DNA of 45,354 nt from Rhodopseudomonas sp. BR0M22 (GTDB lineage: Bacteria > Pseudomonadota > Alphaproteobacteria > Rhizobiales > Xanthobacteraceae). Under the pieces are notes generated by a model. The model was not told the origin of the DNA. It made no database searches and worked only from the letters and a program-made list of their open reading frames with translations. Both the position numbers and the translations under genes were made by a program. This document shows, in pieces, positions 25,014-30,010 of this stretch (position 1 is its first letter; each line of letters begins with the position of its first letter). The stretch is from contig NZ_QUMK01000047.1 in the NCBI RefSeq assembly GCF_010907035.1, forward strand, positions 1-45,354, written 5' to 3'.

Positions 25014-25718
25014 TTAGTACTTGGCAACAACCGGGCCGCCCCAGTTGAAGCGGTAGTTCAGGCCGGCCTTGACAACGTGCTCGTCGTTCTTCGCGGTGAA
25101 GCCCGGGGCGAGGGTGACGTTGCCGAAGTCGTAGTACTGGTACTCGATCTTGCCCGACCAGTTCGGAGCGAACAGGTATTCGAGACCGCCACCGACGGTG
25201 TAACCATCGGTCTTGCTGTCGATCGCAACGCCGACGCCGTTGAAGGTCAGGCTGCTCGAGTAGTCGGCGTAAGCCCAACCACCCTTGACGTAGAGCAGCG
25301 CCGGACCCCAGGTGTAGCCGAGGCGGCCGGTGACCGAGGCCAGACCACGCTGGTTGTCAGCGTAGGTGAACAGGGCGCCCGGGGCACCGAAGGTGACCGA
25401 CTGGTTGGTGCCGCTCAGCCAGCTGTACTGACCTTCAACACCGAGCACCCAGTTCGGAGCGAACTGCCAGTCGTAACCAGCCTGCACACCGCCGAGGAAC
25501 TTGCCGTTGTCGGAAGCGGTGACGCCGGTGCCGATGCTGTTGTCGCCCGAGAAGGCGCCGCCGATGTGACCACCGATGTAGAAGCCGGTCCAGTTGTAGA
25601 TCGGGGCCGGGGCGTAGGCCGGAGCCTTGGTGTACGGACGGGCAGCGAGGTCGGCGGCGAGGGCCGGGGCCGCGCCGAGGGCGACCAGGGCCACGGTGCC
25701 GAGCAGAATCTTCTTCAT
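25014..25718 (-). CDS. Omp25/Omp31-like outer membrane beta-barrel protein
   Basis: A 234-residue protein with a signal peptide (residues 1-21, MKKILLGTVALVALG, AxA cleavage site ALA) and a beta-barrel domain: NWTGFYIGGHIGGAFSG, alternating aromatic strands, DWQFAPNWVLGVEGQYSWLSG, TWGPALLYVKGGWAYADY, and a final strand ending GLNYRFNWGG with a terminal VVAKY. This is the OmpA-like Omp25/31 family abundant in Rhizobiales. The start at 25718 has GGAG 8 bases upstream. A perfect 14-base palindrome lies 67-80 bases upstream. Likely highly expressed; role structural or in membrane stability. Confidence 0.92.
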   Translation of the reverse strand: MKKILLGTVALVALGAAPALAADLAARPYTKAPAYAPAPIYNWTGFYIGGHIGGAFSGDNSIGTGVTASDNGKFLGGVQAGYDWQFAPNWVLGVEGQYSWLSGTNQSVTFGAPGALFTYADNQRGLASVTGRLGYTWGPALLYVKGGWAYADYSSSLTFNGVGVAIDSKTDGYTVGGGLEYLFAPNWSGKIEYQYYDFGNVTLAPGFTAKNDEHVVKAGLNYRFNWGGPVVAKY

Positions 25719-26042: not shown

Positions 26043-26057
26043 TGTTATAATGTAACG
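26043..26057. promoter_or_regulatory. Zur-like operator upstream of the znu cluster
   Basis: TGTTATAATGTAACG contains GTTA and TAAC arms around a TAATG core, close to the rhizobial Zur motif (TGTTATAATATAACA). It lies 35 bases before the GTG start of the His-rich peptide that opens the zinc-uptake genes, which suits zinc-responsive repression. The match is partial (two positions of the 15 differ). Confidence 0.7.
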
Positions 26058-26091: not shown

Positions 26092-26292
26092 GTGAGCGAG
26101 TTTTCCTCTTCTTCTTCTCACCCGAGAAGCGGCGCGCACCATGTGCATCTGCACGTCCACGGCGCCGAATCGCCGCATCCCCCGCAGCCGGCACCCTGGT
26201 CGATCCTGAGAATGGGACTGGTCAGCCGGGTCGCGGCGGCCGCCGCCGCCAGTGCCGTGCTGTGGGCCCTGGTGCTGCTGGCAATGAGGTGA
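26092..26292 (+). CDS. Small histidine-rich single-pass membrane peptide
   Basis: A 66-residue protein starting with GTG (26092), preceded by GGATAGGG. The N-terminal half is hydrophilic, with seven histidines by residue 29 (H10, H16, H17, H19, H21, H23, H29) in an HHVHLHVHG-type metal-binding run followed by a proline-rich stretch. The second half is one hydrophobic helix (about 44-65). It ends two bases before znuC and follows a Zur-like operator, so it is probably zinc-responsive. I do not recognise a named family; a role as a zinc-binding or ZnuABC-associated membrane peptide is inference. The coding nature is supported by the tight spacing and biased composition. Confidence 0.7.
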   Translation: MSEFSSSSSHPRSGAHHVHLHVHGAESPHPPQPAPWSILRMGLVSRVAAAAAASAVLWALVLLAMR

Positions 26293-26294
26293 CG

Positions 26295-27044
26295 ATGACC
26301 GCGCAGCTCACTTTCCAGAACGTCACGCTGGGTTACGATCGCCACCCGGCCGTGCATCATCTGACCGGCCGCGTCGACGCCGGCACTCTGCTGGCCGTGG
26401 TCGGTCCCAATGGCGCCGGCAAGTCGACCCTGTTCCGCGGAATCGTCGGGATTCTGAAACCTTTGGCCGGATCGATCGACCGCAATGGCGTCGATGTCCA
26501 CGATATCGCCTATCTGCCGCAGAGCGCCGAGATCGACCGGACGTTTCCGATCTCGGTGTTCGATTTCGTCGGCACCGGCCTGTGGCGTGCGACCGGCGCG
26601 TTCGGCAGCCTCGGCCGACCGGCCAAGCAGCGGATCTCCGGCGCGCTGGCCGCGGTCGGGCTGTCAGGTTTCGAGAACCGCAACATCGGCACGCTGTCGG
26701 GCGGTCAGATGCAACGCATGCTGTTTGCGCGCGTGCTGCTGCAGGATGCACGGGTGATCGTGCTCGACGAGCCGTTCAATGCCGTCGATGCGCGGACCAC
26801 AGCCGACCTTGTCGCTCTGGTGCAGCATTGGCACGAGGAGGGGCGGACCGTGATCGCCGCGCTGCACGACATGGAGTTGGTGCATGCTAGCTTTCCCGAG
26901 ACGCTGCTACTGGCGCGGACTGCGGTGGCGTGGGGGCCGACCGCCGAGGTGCTGACCCCTGACAACCAGACCGAAGCGCGGCGGATGTGCGAGGCGTTCG
27001 ACGACGGCGCGCCGGCCTGCACCGCGGCTCCGCAGGCTGCCTGA
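26295..27044 (+). CDS. znuC: Zinc/manganese ABC transporter ATP-binding protein (ZnuC-like)
   Basis: A 249-residue ATPase. Walker A GPNGAGKST is at 37-45, signature LSGGQ at 134-138 and Walker B VIVLDEP at 154-160; the H-loop appears in ALHDME. It powers import through the ZnuB permease. The ATG at 26295 has GAGGTGA upstream and lies 2 bases after the His-rich peptide. Its size and gene order fit the ABC-3 (Zn/Mn) family; the Zur-like site favours zinc. The C terminus ends in a Cys/Ala-rich tail (APACTAAPQAA). Confidence 0.93.
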   Translation: MTAQLTFQNVTLGYDRHPAVHHLTGRVDAGTLLAVVGPNGAGKSTLFRGIVGILKPLAGSIDRNGVDVHDIAYLPQSAEIDRTFPISVFDFVGTGLWRATGAFGSLGRPAKQRISGALAAVGLSGFENRNIGTLSGGQMQRMLFARVLLQDARVIVLDEPFNAVDARTTADLVALVQHWHEEGRTVIAALHDMELVHASFPETLLLARTAVAWGPTAEVLTPDNQTEARRMCEAFDDGAPACTAAPQAA

Positions 27045-27048
27045 CACC

Positions 27049-27921
27049 ATGATGCTGTACCAGGCGCTGATCGCGCCGTTCACCGAATTCGAATTCATGC
27101 GCCGGGCGCTCGCCGGTATCGTCGCGCTGTCGCTCGGCGGCGCGCCGATCGGCGTATTTCTGATGCTGCGGCGGATGAGTCTGGTCGGCGACGCGATGGC
27201 CCACGCTATCCTGCCCGGCGCGGCGATCGGCTTCCTGCTGTCGGGACTCAACCTGTTCGCGATGACGTTCGGCGGCCTGATCGCCGGCTTCGCGGTCGCG
27301 ATTCTGGCCGGACTGGTGTCGCGCGTCACCGAGCTGAAGGAAGACGCCTCGCTGGCGGCGTTCTATCTGGTGTCGCTGGCGCTCGGCGTCACCATCGTGT
27401 CGATGCGCGGCACCAATATCGACCTGCTGCATGTGCTGTTCGGCAACATCCTGGCGATGGACGACCGCACCCTGTTGGTGATCGCCTTCAACGCGACGCT
27501 GACACTGTTGGCGCTCGCGGTGATCTGGCGTCCGCTGGTGATCGAATGCGTCGACCCGTTGTTTCTGCGCACCGTCAGCCGCGCCGGCGCGCCGGCGCAT
27601 CTGATCTTCATGGCGCTGGTGGTGATCAATCTGGTCAACGGCTTTCATGCCCTCGGCACGCTGCTCGCGGTCGGCCTGATGATCCTGCCGGCAGGTATCG
27701 CCAAGTTCTGGGCCCGCGACATTTCCGGGATGATGCTGGTGGCGGTCGGCAGCGCGATGCTGTCGGGCTATTGCGGCCTGGTGCTGTCGTATCACGGCGG
27801 CCTGCCGTCGGGCCCCGCGATCATTCTGGTCGCGGCGGTGATCTATCTGATTTCGTTGTTTTTCGGCCGGTCCGGCGGAGTGGTTCGCAAGCTGTTTCCC
27901 GGCCGTCACCTGGAGGCTTGA
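27049..27921 (+). CDS. znuB: Zinc/manganese ABC transporter permease (ZnuB-like)
   Basis: A 290-residue ABC-3 family permease with about eight hydrophobic helices. Characteristic segments are RRMSLVGDAMAHAILPGAAIG (cytoplasmic coupling region) and GFHALGTLLAVGLMILPAG. It starts 4 bases after znuC, and its stop is 5 bases before znuA, so the three form one operon. Zn versus Mn cannot be decided from the permease alone. Confidence 0.94.
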   Translation: MMLYQALIAPFTEFEFMRRALAGIVALSLGGAPIGVFLMLRRMSLVGDAMAHAILPGAAIGFLLSGLNLFAMTFGGLIAGFAVAILAGLVSRVTELKEDASLAAFYLVSLALGVTIVSMRGTNIDLLHVLFGNILAMDDRTLLVIAFNATLTLLALAVIWRPLVIECVDPLFLRTVSRAGAPAHLIFMALVVINLVNGFHALGTLLAVGLMILPAGIAKFWARDISGMMLVAVGSAMLSGYCGLVLSYHGGLPSGPAIILVAAVIYLISLFFGRSGGVVRKLFPGRHLEA

Positions 27922-27926
27922 GAGCG

Positions 27927-28844
27927 ATGATCCGTTGGGGAATGGTGTTGATCGCGGCGCTGCTGATGGCGGCCCCGGCGCAGGCCGATGATCGTGTTCG
28001 CGTGGTCGCGAGCTTTTCGATTCTCGGTGATTTCGTCCGCAACGTCGGCGCCGATCGCGTCGAGGTCTCCACGCTGGTCGGACCGAACGGCGACGCTCAC
28101 GTCTACACGCCGTCTCCAGCCGACGCCAAGACCATCGCCGACGCCCGGCTGGTGGTGGTCAACGGCCTCGGTCTCGAAGGCTGGCTGCCGCGGCTGGTGC
28201 AGTCGTCCGGCGGCAAGGCGACCATCGTCACCGCGACCAAGGGCATCAAGGTGCGCGAGGCCGATGCCGATGATGATCACGGCCATGGCGGCGGCGATCA
28301 TGCCCACGACCACGGTAAGACCGATCCGCACGCCTGGCAGTCCGTGCCCAACGCCAAGATCTATGTCGCCAACATTCGCGATGCGCTGATCGCGGCCGAT
28401 CCCGCCGGCGCCGCGACCTACCGCGCTAATGCCGAGGCCTATCTGGCCAAGCTCGACGCGCTCGACCGCGACGTCCGCGCCGCGGTTGCGTCGATCCCGG
28501 CTCCACGCCGCAAGGTGATCTCCACCCATGAGGCGTTCGGCTATTTCGCCGATGCCTATGGGATCGCCTTCATTGCCCCGCAGGGCGTGTCGACCGAGTC
28601 CGAGGCGAGCGCCCGCGACGTCGCCAGCATCATCACTCAGATCCGCAAGGACAAAGTGCCGGCGGTGTTCCTGGAGAATATCAGCGACCCGCGGCTGATG
28701 CAGCGGATCAGCGCCGAGACCGGCGCCAAGATCGGCGGGACGCTGTATTCCGACAGTCTGACGCCTGAAAACGGCGACGCCCCCACTTACATTGATATGG
28801 TCAGGCACAATATAAAGACGCTGACCGGCGCGCTGAGCAGTTAG
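27927..28844 (+). CDS. znuA: Zinc/manganese ABC transporter substrate-binding protein (ZnuA-like)
   Basis: A 305-residue cluster A-I binding protein. A signal peptide (1-20, ending AQA) precedes the mature domain. Metal ligands are expected at H58 (GDAHVYTP), H135 (KTDPHAW), H201 (STHEAFGYF) and the distal aspartate in GGTLYSDSL. A His/Asp-rich loop (about 114-135, DDDHGHGGGDHAHDHG), absent in Mn-type MntA-like proteins, supports zinc. It delivers periplasmic zinc to ZnuBC. The neighbour upstream is znuB, and the GTPase gene downstream is also metal-linked. Confidence 0.95.
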   Translation: MIRWGMVLIAALLMAAPAQADDRVRVVASFSILGDFVRNVGADRVEVSTLVGPNGDAHVYTPSPADAKTIADARLVVVNGLGLEGWLPRLVQSSGGKATIVTATKGIKVREADADDDHGHGGGDHAHDHGKTDPHAWQSVPNAKIYVANIRDALIAADPAGAATYRANAEAYLAKLDALDRDVRAAVASIPAPRRKVISTHEAFGYFADAYGIAFIAPQGVSTESEASARDVASIITQIRKDKVPAVFLENISDPRLMQRISAETGAKIGGTLYSDSLTPENGDAPTYIDMVRHNIKTLTGALSS

Positions 28845-28969
28845 CGGCCCGGTCCCGCTGCGTCCGGCCGCCCGGCGAAACGCGCGGTCCCCGCCCTTTC
28901 CGGCCCCGACTTTCGAGACGCGCACAACGTGTGTTTCAGGCTGGGGTTTCGTGCTGGAGCAAGTATCCG

Positions 28970-30010
28970 ATGTCCTCTACCGCTGCCTCGAAAATTCCCG
29001 TCACCGTGCTCACCGGCTATCTCGGCGCCGGCAAGACGACGCTGCTGAACCGCATTCTGTCGGAGAACCACGGCAAGAAATACGCGGTGATCGTCAACGA
29101 ATTCGGCGAGATCGGCATCGACAATGACCTGATCATCGGTGCGGACGAAGAAGTGTTCGAGATGAACAACGGCTGCGTCTGCTGCACGGTGCGCGGCGAC
29201 CTGGTGCGGATTCTCGCCGGGCTGATGAAGCGCAAGGGCAAGTTCGACGCGATCATCGTCGAGACCACTGGGCTCGCCGATCCGGCGCCGGTGGCGCAGA
29301 CTTTCTTCGTCGACGAAGACGTGCAGAACGCCGCGCGGCTCGATGCGGTGGTGACCGTCGCCGACGCCAAATGGCTGAGCGAGCGGCTGAAGGACGCGCC
29401 GGAAGCCAAGAACCAGATCGCCTTCGCCGACGTCATCGTGCTGAACAAGACCGATCTCGTCTCTCCGGCCGAACTGGCCGAAGTCGAAGCCCGGATCCGC
29501 GCGATCAACCCTTACGCCAAGCTGCATCGAACCGAGCGCTGCCAGGTTGCGCTCGCCGACGTGCTGGAGCGCGGCGCGTTCGATCTCGACCGGATTCTGG
29601 AGATCGAGCCGGCCTTCCTCGAAGCTGACGAACATGATCACCATCACGATCACGACCATCACCACGGTCACGATCATCATCATGGTCACGGGCTGAAGCA
29701 CTATCACGACGAGGACATGCAATCGCTGTCGCTGAAGAGCGACAAGCCGCTCGATCCGGCCAAGTTCATGCCCTGGCTGCAGCAATTGGTGCAGACCGAA
29801 GGCGGTAAGATCCTGCGTTCCAAGGGCATTCTCGCCTTCAGAGGCGACGATGATCGTTATGTGTTCCAGGGCGTTCACATGATGCTGGAAGGTGATCACC
29901 AGCGGCCCTGGAAGGACGATGAGCCGCGCGAAAGCCGCGTCGTGTTCATCGGCCGCGATCTGCCCGAACAGGCGATCCGCGACGGCTTCGCCAAGTGCAT
30001 CGCGTCATGA
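28970..30010 (+). CDS. CobW/COG0523 family metal GTPase (zinc chaperone type)
   Basis: A 346-residue G3E GTPase. It has the P-loop GYLGAGKT (16-23), the metal motif GCVCC (68-72), the Walker B region VETTGLADP, the NKTD guanine motif (159-162) and a histidine-rich linker (222-246, HDHHHDHDHHHGHDHHHG) before the C-terminal CobW domain. Its position next to znuABC suggests a zinc-deficiency metallochaperone (ZagA/ZigA group) rather than cobalt insertion; no cobalamin genes are nearby. Start chosen at the ATG (28970); an in-frame GTG at 28931 is possible. The stop overlaps the next start (ATGA). Confidence 0.93.
   Translation: MSSTAASKIPVTVLTGYLGAGKTTLLNRILSENHGKKYAVIVNEFGEIGIDNDLIIGADEEVFEMNNGCVCCTVRGDLVRILAGLMKRKGKFDAIIVETTGLADPAPVAQTFFVDEDVQNAARLDAVVTVADAKWLSERLKDAPEAKNQIAFADVIVLNKTDLVSPAELAEVEARIRAINPYAKLHRTERCQVALADVLERGAFDLDRILEIEPAFLEADEHDHHHDHDHHHGHDHHHGHGLKHYHDEDMQSLSLKSDKPLDPAKFMPWLQQLVQTEGGKILRSKGILAFRGDDDRYVFQGVHMMLEGDHQRPWKDDEPRESRVVFIGRDLPEQAIRDGFAKCIAS

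Follow-up and report, generated by a model that had tools for sequence, protein, structure and literature searches.

What is the short open reading frame (ORF) that opens a zinc-import operon of Rhodopseudomonas sp. BR0M22, and what would its product do for the importer encoded directly behind it? The ORF lies at 26092–26292 in a window of 45,354 nucleotides (nt), the whole stretch of DNA analysed here. We put a probability of roughly 0.6 on the reading that its product is a one-helix accessory micro-subunit of an Azt-type zinc importer, with its N-terminus inside the cell, packing on the permease AztB and here furnished with a cytosolic histidine (His) tail. A transporter subunit is preferred because two residues of the helix are near-invariant, the place in the operon is fixed across bacterial classes and the gene is nearly confined to one type of transporter. 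Association with the importer is drawn from gene neighbourhood and co-distribution, and it is from sequence that we infer Zur control, contact with AztB, zinc binding and the direction of any effect. The gene and its parts are as follows.

26092–26292, + strand: small gene with a GTG start, 66 residues, encoding a His-rich N-terminal tail and a C-terminal membrane helix
26119–26178, + strand: His-rich stretch, residues 10–29, apparently a lineage-specific add-on and predicted to be disordered
26194–26286, + strand: helix predicted by AlphaFold2, residues 35–65, with the signature R46-x11-W58 (residues and spacing)

The small gene and its coding constraint

The ORF translates as VSEFSSSSSHPRSGAHHVHLHVHGAESPHPPQPAPWSILRMGLVSRVAAAAAASAVLWALVLLAMR (66 residues) and closes with a stop codon at 26290–26292, leaving a gap of 2 nt to the ATG (26295) of the ATPase gene. 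GTG 26092 is its only plausible start, because an in-frame TAG lies two codons 5′ of it and the frame's one other start codon comes 17 codons further downstream. Seven His residues (10, 16, 17, 19, 21, 23 and 29) fall within the first 29 positions. AlphaFold2, working from a thin alignment of six rows, predicted a single helix over residues 35–65, with a block-mean predicted local distance difference test (pLDDT) score of 92–96 from residue 41 on and scores of 50–55 for residues 1–30. The first-pass annotation had described just such a gene, GTG-started, with seven His in its first 29 residues and one membrane helix, set between a Zur-like box and the ATPase gene at a distance of 2 nt; translation, predicted structure and coordinates all bear this out.

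That annotation had also staked its claim on counterparts in relatives and on coding constraint, and both were found. A search with the small protein matched 94 of 101 genomes (its own and relatives) at a loose limit of E 1, with 37 places at E < 0.001 among the matches listed, and a homologous ORF stood directly before the ATPase gene in all 30 loci fetched (L001–L030, the window's own included). Ratios of nonsynonymous to synonymous change (dN/dS) were taken as pairwise medians over 16 same-genus sequences, with start codons chosen by us; they came to 0.335 over the full ORF, 0.444 over the residues that precede SPHP and 0.260 over the core, as against 1.46 and 2.19 for the other two frames of the core, and are rough, as synonymous differences are high (mean pS 0.48–0.66). 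The value of 2.19 belongs to the frame in which the ATPase might be extended upstream from GTG 26070, and because of it such an extension is unlikely. Together with the census and its shuffled controls, given below, the dN/dS values confirm at sequence level that the small ORF is under protein-level constraint and is not a chance ORF.

A profile built from 30 small-protein members of the bacterium's own family (A1) matched 207 of 248 genomes of that family at E 0.001. At E 0.01 it matched 63 of 297 genomes of the order, 11 of which belong to the same family. From the 52 matched genomes outside the family, the best 19 loci (L068–L086) were fetched; all 19 directly precede an ORF with a Walker-A motif, and 17 of the 19 show a GY-x-R-x-P motif.

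Importer loci and the helix signature

The census of importer loci was started from AztA or AztB rather than from the small protein, as several distant members have no His tract. It comprised 30 of the best AztA loci from an order-wide search (114 of 121 genomes matched), 60 top-ranking AztB places of a class-wide search (with a match in 127 of 210 genomes; the window, one place at a contig edge and one with an odd open frame were left out), and 27 loci that were new among the 30 best of an AztB search across the phylum (with a match in 114 of 200 genomes). Two of these 117 chromosomal loci (L161 and L164) had no ATPase match. Plasmids were counted apart, as 15 of the 47 records found with the ATPase; they were picked with annotation in view, three of them since a hypothetical protein overlapped the match. 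A transmembrane (TM) ORF was defined as a forward ORF of 28–200 codons that ends within −110 to +45 nt of the estimated ATPase start and has a hydrophobic 19-mer near its C-terminus (mean Kyte–Doolittle value of at least 1.5), with neither arginine nor tryptophan asked for; the signature was R-x11-W/Y in the tail of such an ORF. Loci were classed as Azt-type at tblastn scores of at least 130 bits to the window ATPase and at least 150 bits to the window permease, or where no permease lay on the piece. A looser signature rule that omitted the hydrophobicity test was dropped because it falsely picked up L208, L217 and some loci from the gene-lacking clade, and L182, counted at first through a 394-residue upstream protein, was removed by the length limit.

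TM ORFs were present in 83 of the 98 chromosomal Azt-type loci and carried the signature in 81, whereas dinucleotide shuffles of the same regions gave 2.9% and 0.07%, respectively. With near-identical ATPases removed, the signature count was 77 of 92. Plasmid loci had a TM ORF in nine of 15 cases and the signature in eight, and the Znu-type loci had one and none among 17, three of which (L110, L206 and L207) are odd long-branched cases and not plain Znu. Over all unique Azt loci, plasmids included, the signature occurs in 85 of 107, or 89 with four members added by eye (L176, which the rule missed, and L190, L198 and L287, in which the W is replaced); as these loci are top scorers, the fraction applies to Azt-like systems close to the models and not to metal importers in general. 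In 73 of 89 census members the small gene stops between −30 and +15 nt from the estimated start of the ATPase, and in three annotated records the two genes overlap by 4 nt.

Some loci lie at the edge of this classification. L207, classed as Znu-type on a very long branch, has a short TM ORF, KKRILIALGGFALVALLLWWVW, before its ATPase; it has no signature and could be a diverged member or a chance occurrence. A diverged importer in one other family of the phylum (L253/L280 and L276), whose ATPase is 37–38% identical to that of the window, has a small His-containing R-x11-W protein. These loci were counted as Azt-type and adjoin a long Znu-classed branch, and the small-protein family may extend past plain Azt-type systems.

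The signature resides in the helix. R-x11-W/Y is present in 89 of the 92 TM-ending ORFs, plasmids included, though the rule asks for neither residue. An earlier spacing set had required K/R before the helix and W inside it, so that its 66 equal spacings out of 71 were partly selected, and the claim on spacing uses the TM-rule census instead; the expression used for that set also mis-anchored L178 and L186, both of which on inspection have the spacing at a different arginine, overlooked the spacing that is present in L103, L117 and L121, and met two small proteins without the W (L190 and L198). In a gapless alignment of 85 unique cores anchored on the arginine, where R(0) and W/Y(+12) are fixed by selection, the preferred residues before the arginine are S(−9) in 69%, [L/P/A](−8), L(−7) in 75%, [S/G](−4) in 89% and then [A/V](−3); after it they are L(+1) in 72%, [A/V](+4) in 91%, L(+11) in 78%, [V/I](+15) in 75%, W(+17) in 79% and A(+18) in 82%. 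The equivalents in the window protein are S37, L39, G42, R46, V47, A50, L57, W58, V61, L63 and A64, with L63 at the place of the second tryptophan, as in 11% of cores. The window protein itself has the R-x11-W pair (R46 and W58) in a C-terminal TM helix with a positive N side, and its ORF lies directly upstream of an Azt-type ATPase gene.

Because arginine and lysine are concentrated on the N side of the helix, the positive-inside rule predicts that the N-terminus, and hence the His tail, is cytoplasmic. There are 143 such residues on the N side and seven on the C side, the N side being richer in 67 of 68 proteins with one tie, in a count that has a few rows anchored on another arginine. The tail itself varies. 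At least five His are present in 27 of the 30 A1 members but in only 23 of the 89 census members (last 75 residues), 66 of which have fewer than five and 32 none, and because of this difference we regard the helix as the conserved part of the family and the His tail as a lineage trait. The first-pass proposal of a zinc-binding subunit may hold for the bacterium's own lineage; as the His tract does not define the family, the conserved function must sit in the helix. Three loci whose small protein has only 0–2 His (L189, L195 and L198) have a His cluster at the N-terminus of the ATPase, and the tract may move between proteins; these clusters hint at a cytoplasmic role of the tail close to the ATPase.

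The family is found in several classes of Pseudomonadota, with named examples among the alpha-, beta- and gammaproteobacteria. At E 0.01 a profile of 55 cores (A2) had matches in 50 of 249 genomes across the phylum, and the ATPase gene lay directly downstream in all 30 A2 loci fetched (the window included; the weakest matches were outside the fetched set). With the small protein as query, plasmids yielded no match at E 1. The gene is listed as ‘hypothetical’ or ‘Uncharacterised protein’ in a Paracoccaceae plasmid (QEW23251.1), Skermanella rosea (WP_203101353.1), Thioclava (XBA80629.1), Comamonas antarctica (WP_175506313.1) and Klebsiella aerogenes (VDZ62730.1, 35 residues). It is present with no gene listed in another Thioclava, Methylobacterium bullatum, Azospirillum lipoferum and Enterobacter hormaechei, where missing annotation is weak evidence, as the plasmid gene table is incomplete and the Methylobacterium and Azospirillum records list no gene at all. 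These examples agree with the early remark that such a gene is easily missed. Four Bradyrhizobium contigs (L220–L223) carry it, and a plasmid of Bradyrhizobium sp. 155 (L127) has an Azt-like transporter without it.

The absence of a named family, also anticipated in the first pass, was upheld: nothing exceeded the cut-off when the window protein and the 55 A2 cores were scanned against Pfam and NCBIfam, the 30 A1 members against Pfam, and seven further members against NCBIfam. The best sub-threshold matches were DUF6404 (Pfam, E 0.00085, two of 55 cores) and YshB (NCBIfam, E 0.004, one of 55). We treat the family as unnamed and define it provisionally by R-x11-W before an Azt-type ATPase gene.

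The operon, its transporter and the Zur-type box

The gene order is Zur-type box, small gene, ATPase, permease, zinc-binding protein and CobW-type GTPase. The features around the small gene are as follows.

26044–26056, + strand: Zur-type palindrome GTTATAATGTAAC, containing TATAAT, the sole GTTA-N5-TAAC in the 45-kb window
26295–27044, + strand: Azt-like ABC ATPase in the AztA/ZnuC position (Pfam ABC_tran 9e-26; NCBIfam AztA 214.2 bits, cut-off 220)
27049–27921, + strand: Azt-like permease of the ABC-3 family (Pfam ABC-3 6.5e-52; NCBIfam AztB 266.3 bits, cut-off 280)
27927–28844, + strand: zinc-binding protein of the ZnuA/AztC family, with a His-rich loop (Pfam ZnuA 2e-95; NCBIfam AztC 338.6 bits, cut-off 350)
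28931–30010, + strand: CobW-family GTPase with a His-rich stretch (Pfam cobW 7e-61, CobW_C 8e-29)

The GTPase gene is the probable last gene of the operon, judged by order and strand. All three transporter proteins narrowly miss the curated AztA, AztB and AztC cut-offs, and the ZnuC, ZnuB and ZnuA models give only 101.6, 87.8 and 82.5 bits against cut-offs of 306, 284 and 268. Because the Azt scores lie far above the Znu scores, the transporter is by its profile matches closer to AztABC than to ZnuABC. The first-pass label of a znu operon, with ZnuBC as the partner, is consequently loose: a zinc-import operon with a Zur-type box stands, but its transporter is Azt-like, and none of the 17 Znu-type loci examined has the signature gene. 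Three proteins of the cluster have a His-rich stretch, the others being encoded at 28275–28322 (binding protein) and 29630–29716 (CobW-type GTPase). The operon has its intergenic region in common with a divergent outer-membrane beta-barrel gene (25014–25718, − strand; OMP_b-brl 1.7e-17).

GTTA-5N-TAAC is given as the proteobacterial Zur consensus in the available text of PMC4176598. One copy of GTTA-N5-TAAC was found in the window against 0.02 expected by chance, and it ends 35 nt before the GTG of the small gene. A scan for promoters by a simple rule found none. A longer form of the box, RTGTTATANNRTAAC, occurs without mismatch at two sites in the genome, upstream of the small gene and on contig C55. 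The exact GTTA-N5-TAAC motif is present in 25 of the 30 loci L001–L030 and just before the small gene in the K. aerogenes and E. hormaechei records. Within the 500 nt before the ATPase gene, 28 of 88 signature loci have the strict box and 36 of 88 a relaxed one; among Azt loci that lack the signature, the figures are 10 and 16 of 24. Three of 17 Znu-type loci have the strict box there, and none of the loci has it in 500 nt inside the ATPase gene.

The second genomic site, at C55:3541–3560 (L224/L225), has overlapping Zur-type boxes about 410 bases before an ORF with the plug domain of a TonB-dependent receptor (Pfam Plug 8.5e-21). This ORF is a candidate zinc receptor of Rhodopseudomonas sp. 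BR0M22, and the arrangement resembles Zur-controlled receptors described for Caulobacter in the same text (PMC4176598).

Readings of the small protein and their meaning

If the product is a micro-subunit, zinc shortage would lift Zur repression and the small protein would be made first, next to the ATPase gene. It would sit in the inner membrane as a single-pass protein with its N-terminus in the cytoplasm and its C-terminus at the periplasmic face, the near-invariant arginine lying at the cytoplasmic border and the near-invariant tryptophan 12 residues on. AztB is the likely contact because these operons encode the permease as their large membrane component, and packing of the helix against it could stabilize the complex or tune its cycle. 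In the bacterium's own lineage the disordered His tail would be placed where imported zinc emerges, at the cytoplasmic mouth and close to the ATPase, and would be likely to catch Zn2+ leaving the permease so as to buffer it, hand it on or report local zinc to the importer.

The main weight of function might instead lie in the tail, the protein being a zinc-buffering or zinc-handing peptide that delivers zinc, for example, to the CobW-family GTPase and uses its helix only as an anchor. The seven His in the first 29 residues, the abundance of His in 27 of 30 own-family members and the His-rich stretches of the CobW and binding proteins are all in keeping with this, yet most census members keep the helix signature with few His or none, the N-terminal part has a higher dN/dS (0.44) than the core (0.26), and a mere anchor needs no fixed R-x11-W; we consider it unlikely, though not negligible. 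Quite unlikely in our view is an inhibitor or zinc-responsive brake, in which the helix lowers transport through AztB when the tail is zinc-loaded or the importer saturated. It draws on the same association evidence as the micro-subunit, and one-helix proteins that alter transporter activity are known, such as AcrZ on AcrB (PMC7267776, in its available text), but co-expression from a presumed zinc-starvation promoter better fits a subunit for assembly or activity.

Two further explanations deny the peptide a function. Stop and next start within a few bases of each other, or overlapping by 4 nt, in many loci would suit a leader ORF that, when translated, opens the start of the ATPase by coupling; constraint at the protein level in the small-gene frame only, and conservation of the residue signature from Rhizobiales through to Enterobacterales, make this very improbable. 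That the ORF is no gene, but chance or the upstream part of an ATPase extended from GTG 26070, is extremely unlikely: the ATPase frame is indeed open upstream to 26070, with only one stop in the core region of the 16 same-genus sequences, but its median dN/dS is the 2.19 noted above, and the signature ORF recurs across the chromosomal census at a rate that shuffles do not approach.

Several results weigh against the micro-subunit. Eighteen of the 107 unique Azt-type loci are without the small gene, a whole clade included, so the importer can work without the small protein. No solved structure contains the protein: the only matches of a profile search of the PDB were antibody light chains, with E values of 0.07 or worse. 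If the helix packed by one side, its conservation should be periodic, but no significant periodicity was seen, with 332 of 5000 shuffles as strong over positions −8 to 17 and 1696 and 3126 of 5000 over 0 to 17 and 1 to 17. Relocation of His to the ATPase is seen in three loci, and at least one A2 match (G853, E 0.006) lies on a different contig from that genome's AztB. Because the Zur-type box is also present in Azt loci without the signature, it goes with the operon and says nothing for the small gene as such.

The loci lacking the gene are mostly related. On an ATPase tree of the 107 Azt and eight Znu-type loci, a quick tree with 50 of its 112 inner branches unresolved, presence and absence need five changes within Azt. 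Fourteen of the 18 form one branch, with a support of 99 in the Shimodaira–Hasegawa-like approximate likelihood ratio test; it includes Paracoccus sp. MA, Sinorhizobium chiapasense and the Klebsiella pneumoniae plasmid pBio30, which have AztD beside or in the operon, as well as Mesorhizobium and Devosia plasmids and two chromosomal genera. The other four (L127, L182, L211 and L269) are scattered on long branches. One loss in the clade is the simplest reading of the tree, and no proof. AztD gave no match at E 1e-20 in the bacterium's own genome or in any of 70 genomes searched, five of them (G350, G315, G081, G348 and G313) also without the small gene, and a rule of mutual exclusion between the two is unsupported.

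The window shares its ATPase, permease and binding-protein families with AztABCD of Paracoccus denitrificans, whose NCBIfam models are the nearest, but its proteins fall under all three cut-offs, its genome has no match to AztD, and the three AztD-linked plasmid operons have no small gene and share a clade with 11 further loci that lack it. With ZnuABC it has in common a zinc importer with an ABC-3 permease, a ZnuA-family binding protein and a Zur-type box, but the ZnuC, ZnuB and ZnuA scores are far lower and the signature gene is missing from all 17 Znu-type loci of the census. AcrZ, KdpF and CydX are very short single-helix proteins that act on large membrane complexes; the small protein is like them in size and in its single helix, with no sequence relation over the Pfam and NCBIfam cut-offs. 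Small membrane subunits of the CbtB/CbiN type are likewise encoded next to metal importers, and CbtB contains His, but they belong to other transporter classes, and no such model was among the matches of the 30 members (Pfam) or the 55 cores (Pfam and NCBIfam). No title or abstract in the open-access literature searched described such a protein, and its terms do not occur in the available text of PMC10903887. Studies of Azt/Zni importers describe, in the text available, only ATPase, permease and binding protein, with AztD in addition (PMC7731109, PMC12183173).

The studied Paracoccus system probably belongs to the gene-lacking AztABCD clade. Evenly balanced, in our judgement, is the broader proposal that Azt-type importers of Pseudomonadota were ancestrally four-part, with an R-x11-W micro-subunit that was lost once in that clade, and that the His tail of the window's lineage serves as an acceptor or feedback sensor at the zinc exit. 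If true, a conserved and overlooked subunit would change how a widespread class of zinc importer is expressed, purified and modelled; reconstitution without the small protein may miss a part, and the textbook picture of Azt has no such subunit. R-x11-W before an aztA-type gene would also be a signature by which to annotate small genes down to about 30 codons across Pseudomonadota. The two near-invariant residues of the helix, together with the His tail, would provide direct targets for asking how such importers hand zinc to the cytosol and how they are shut off.
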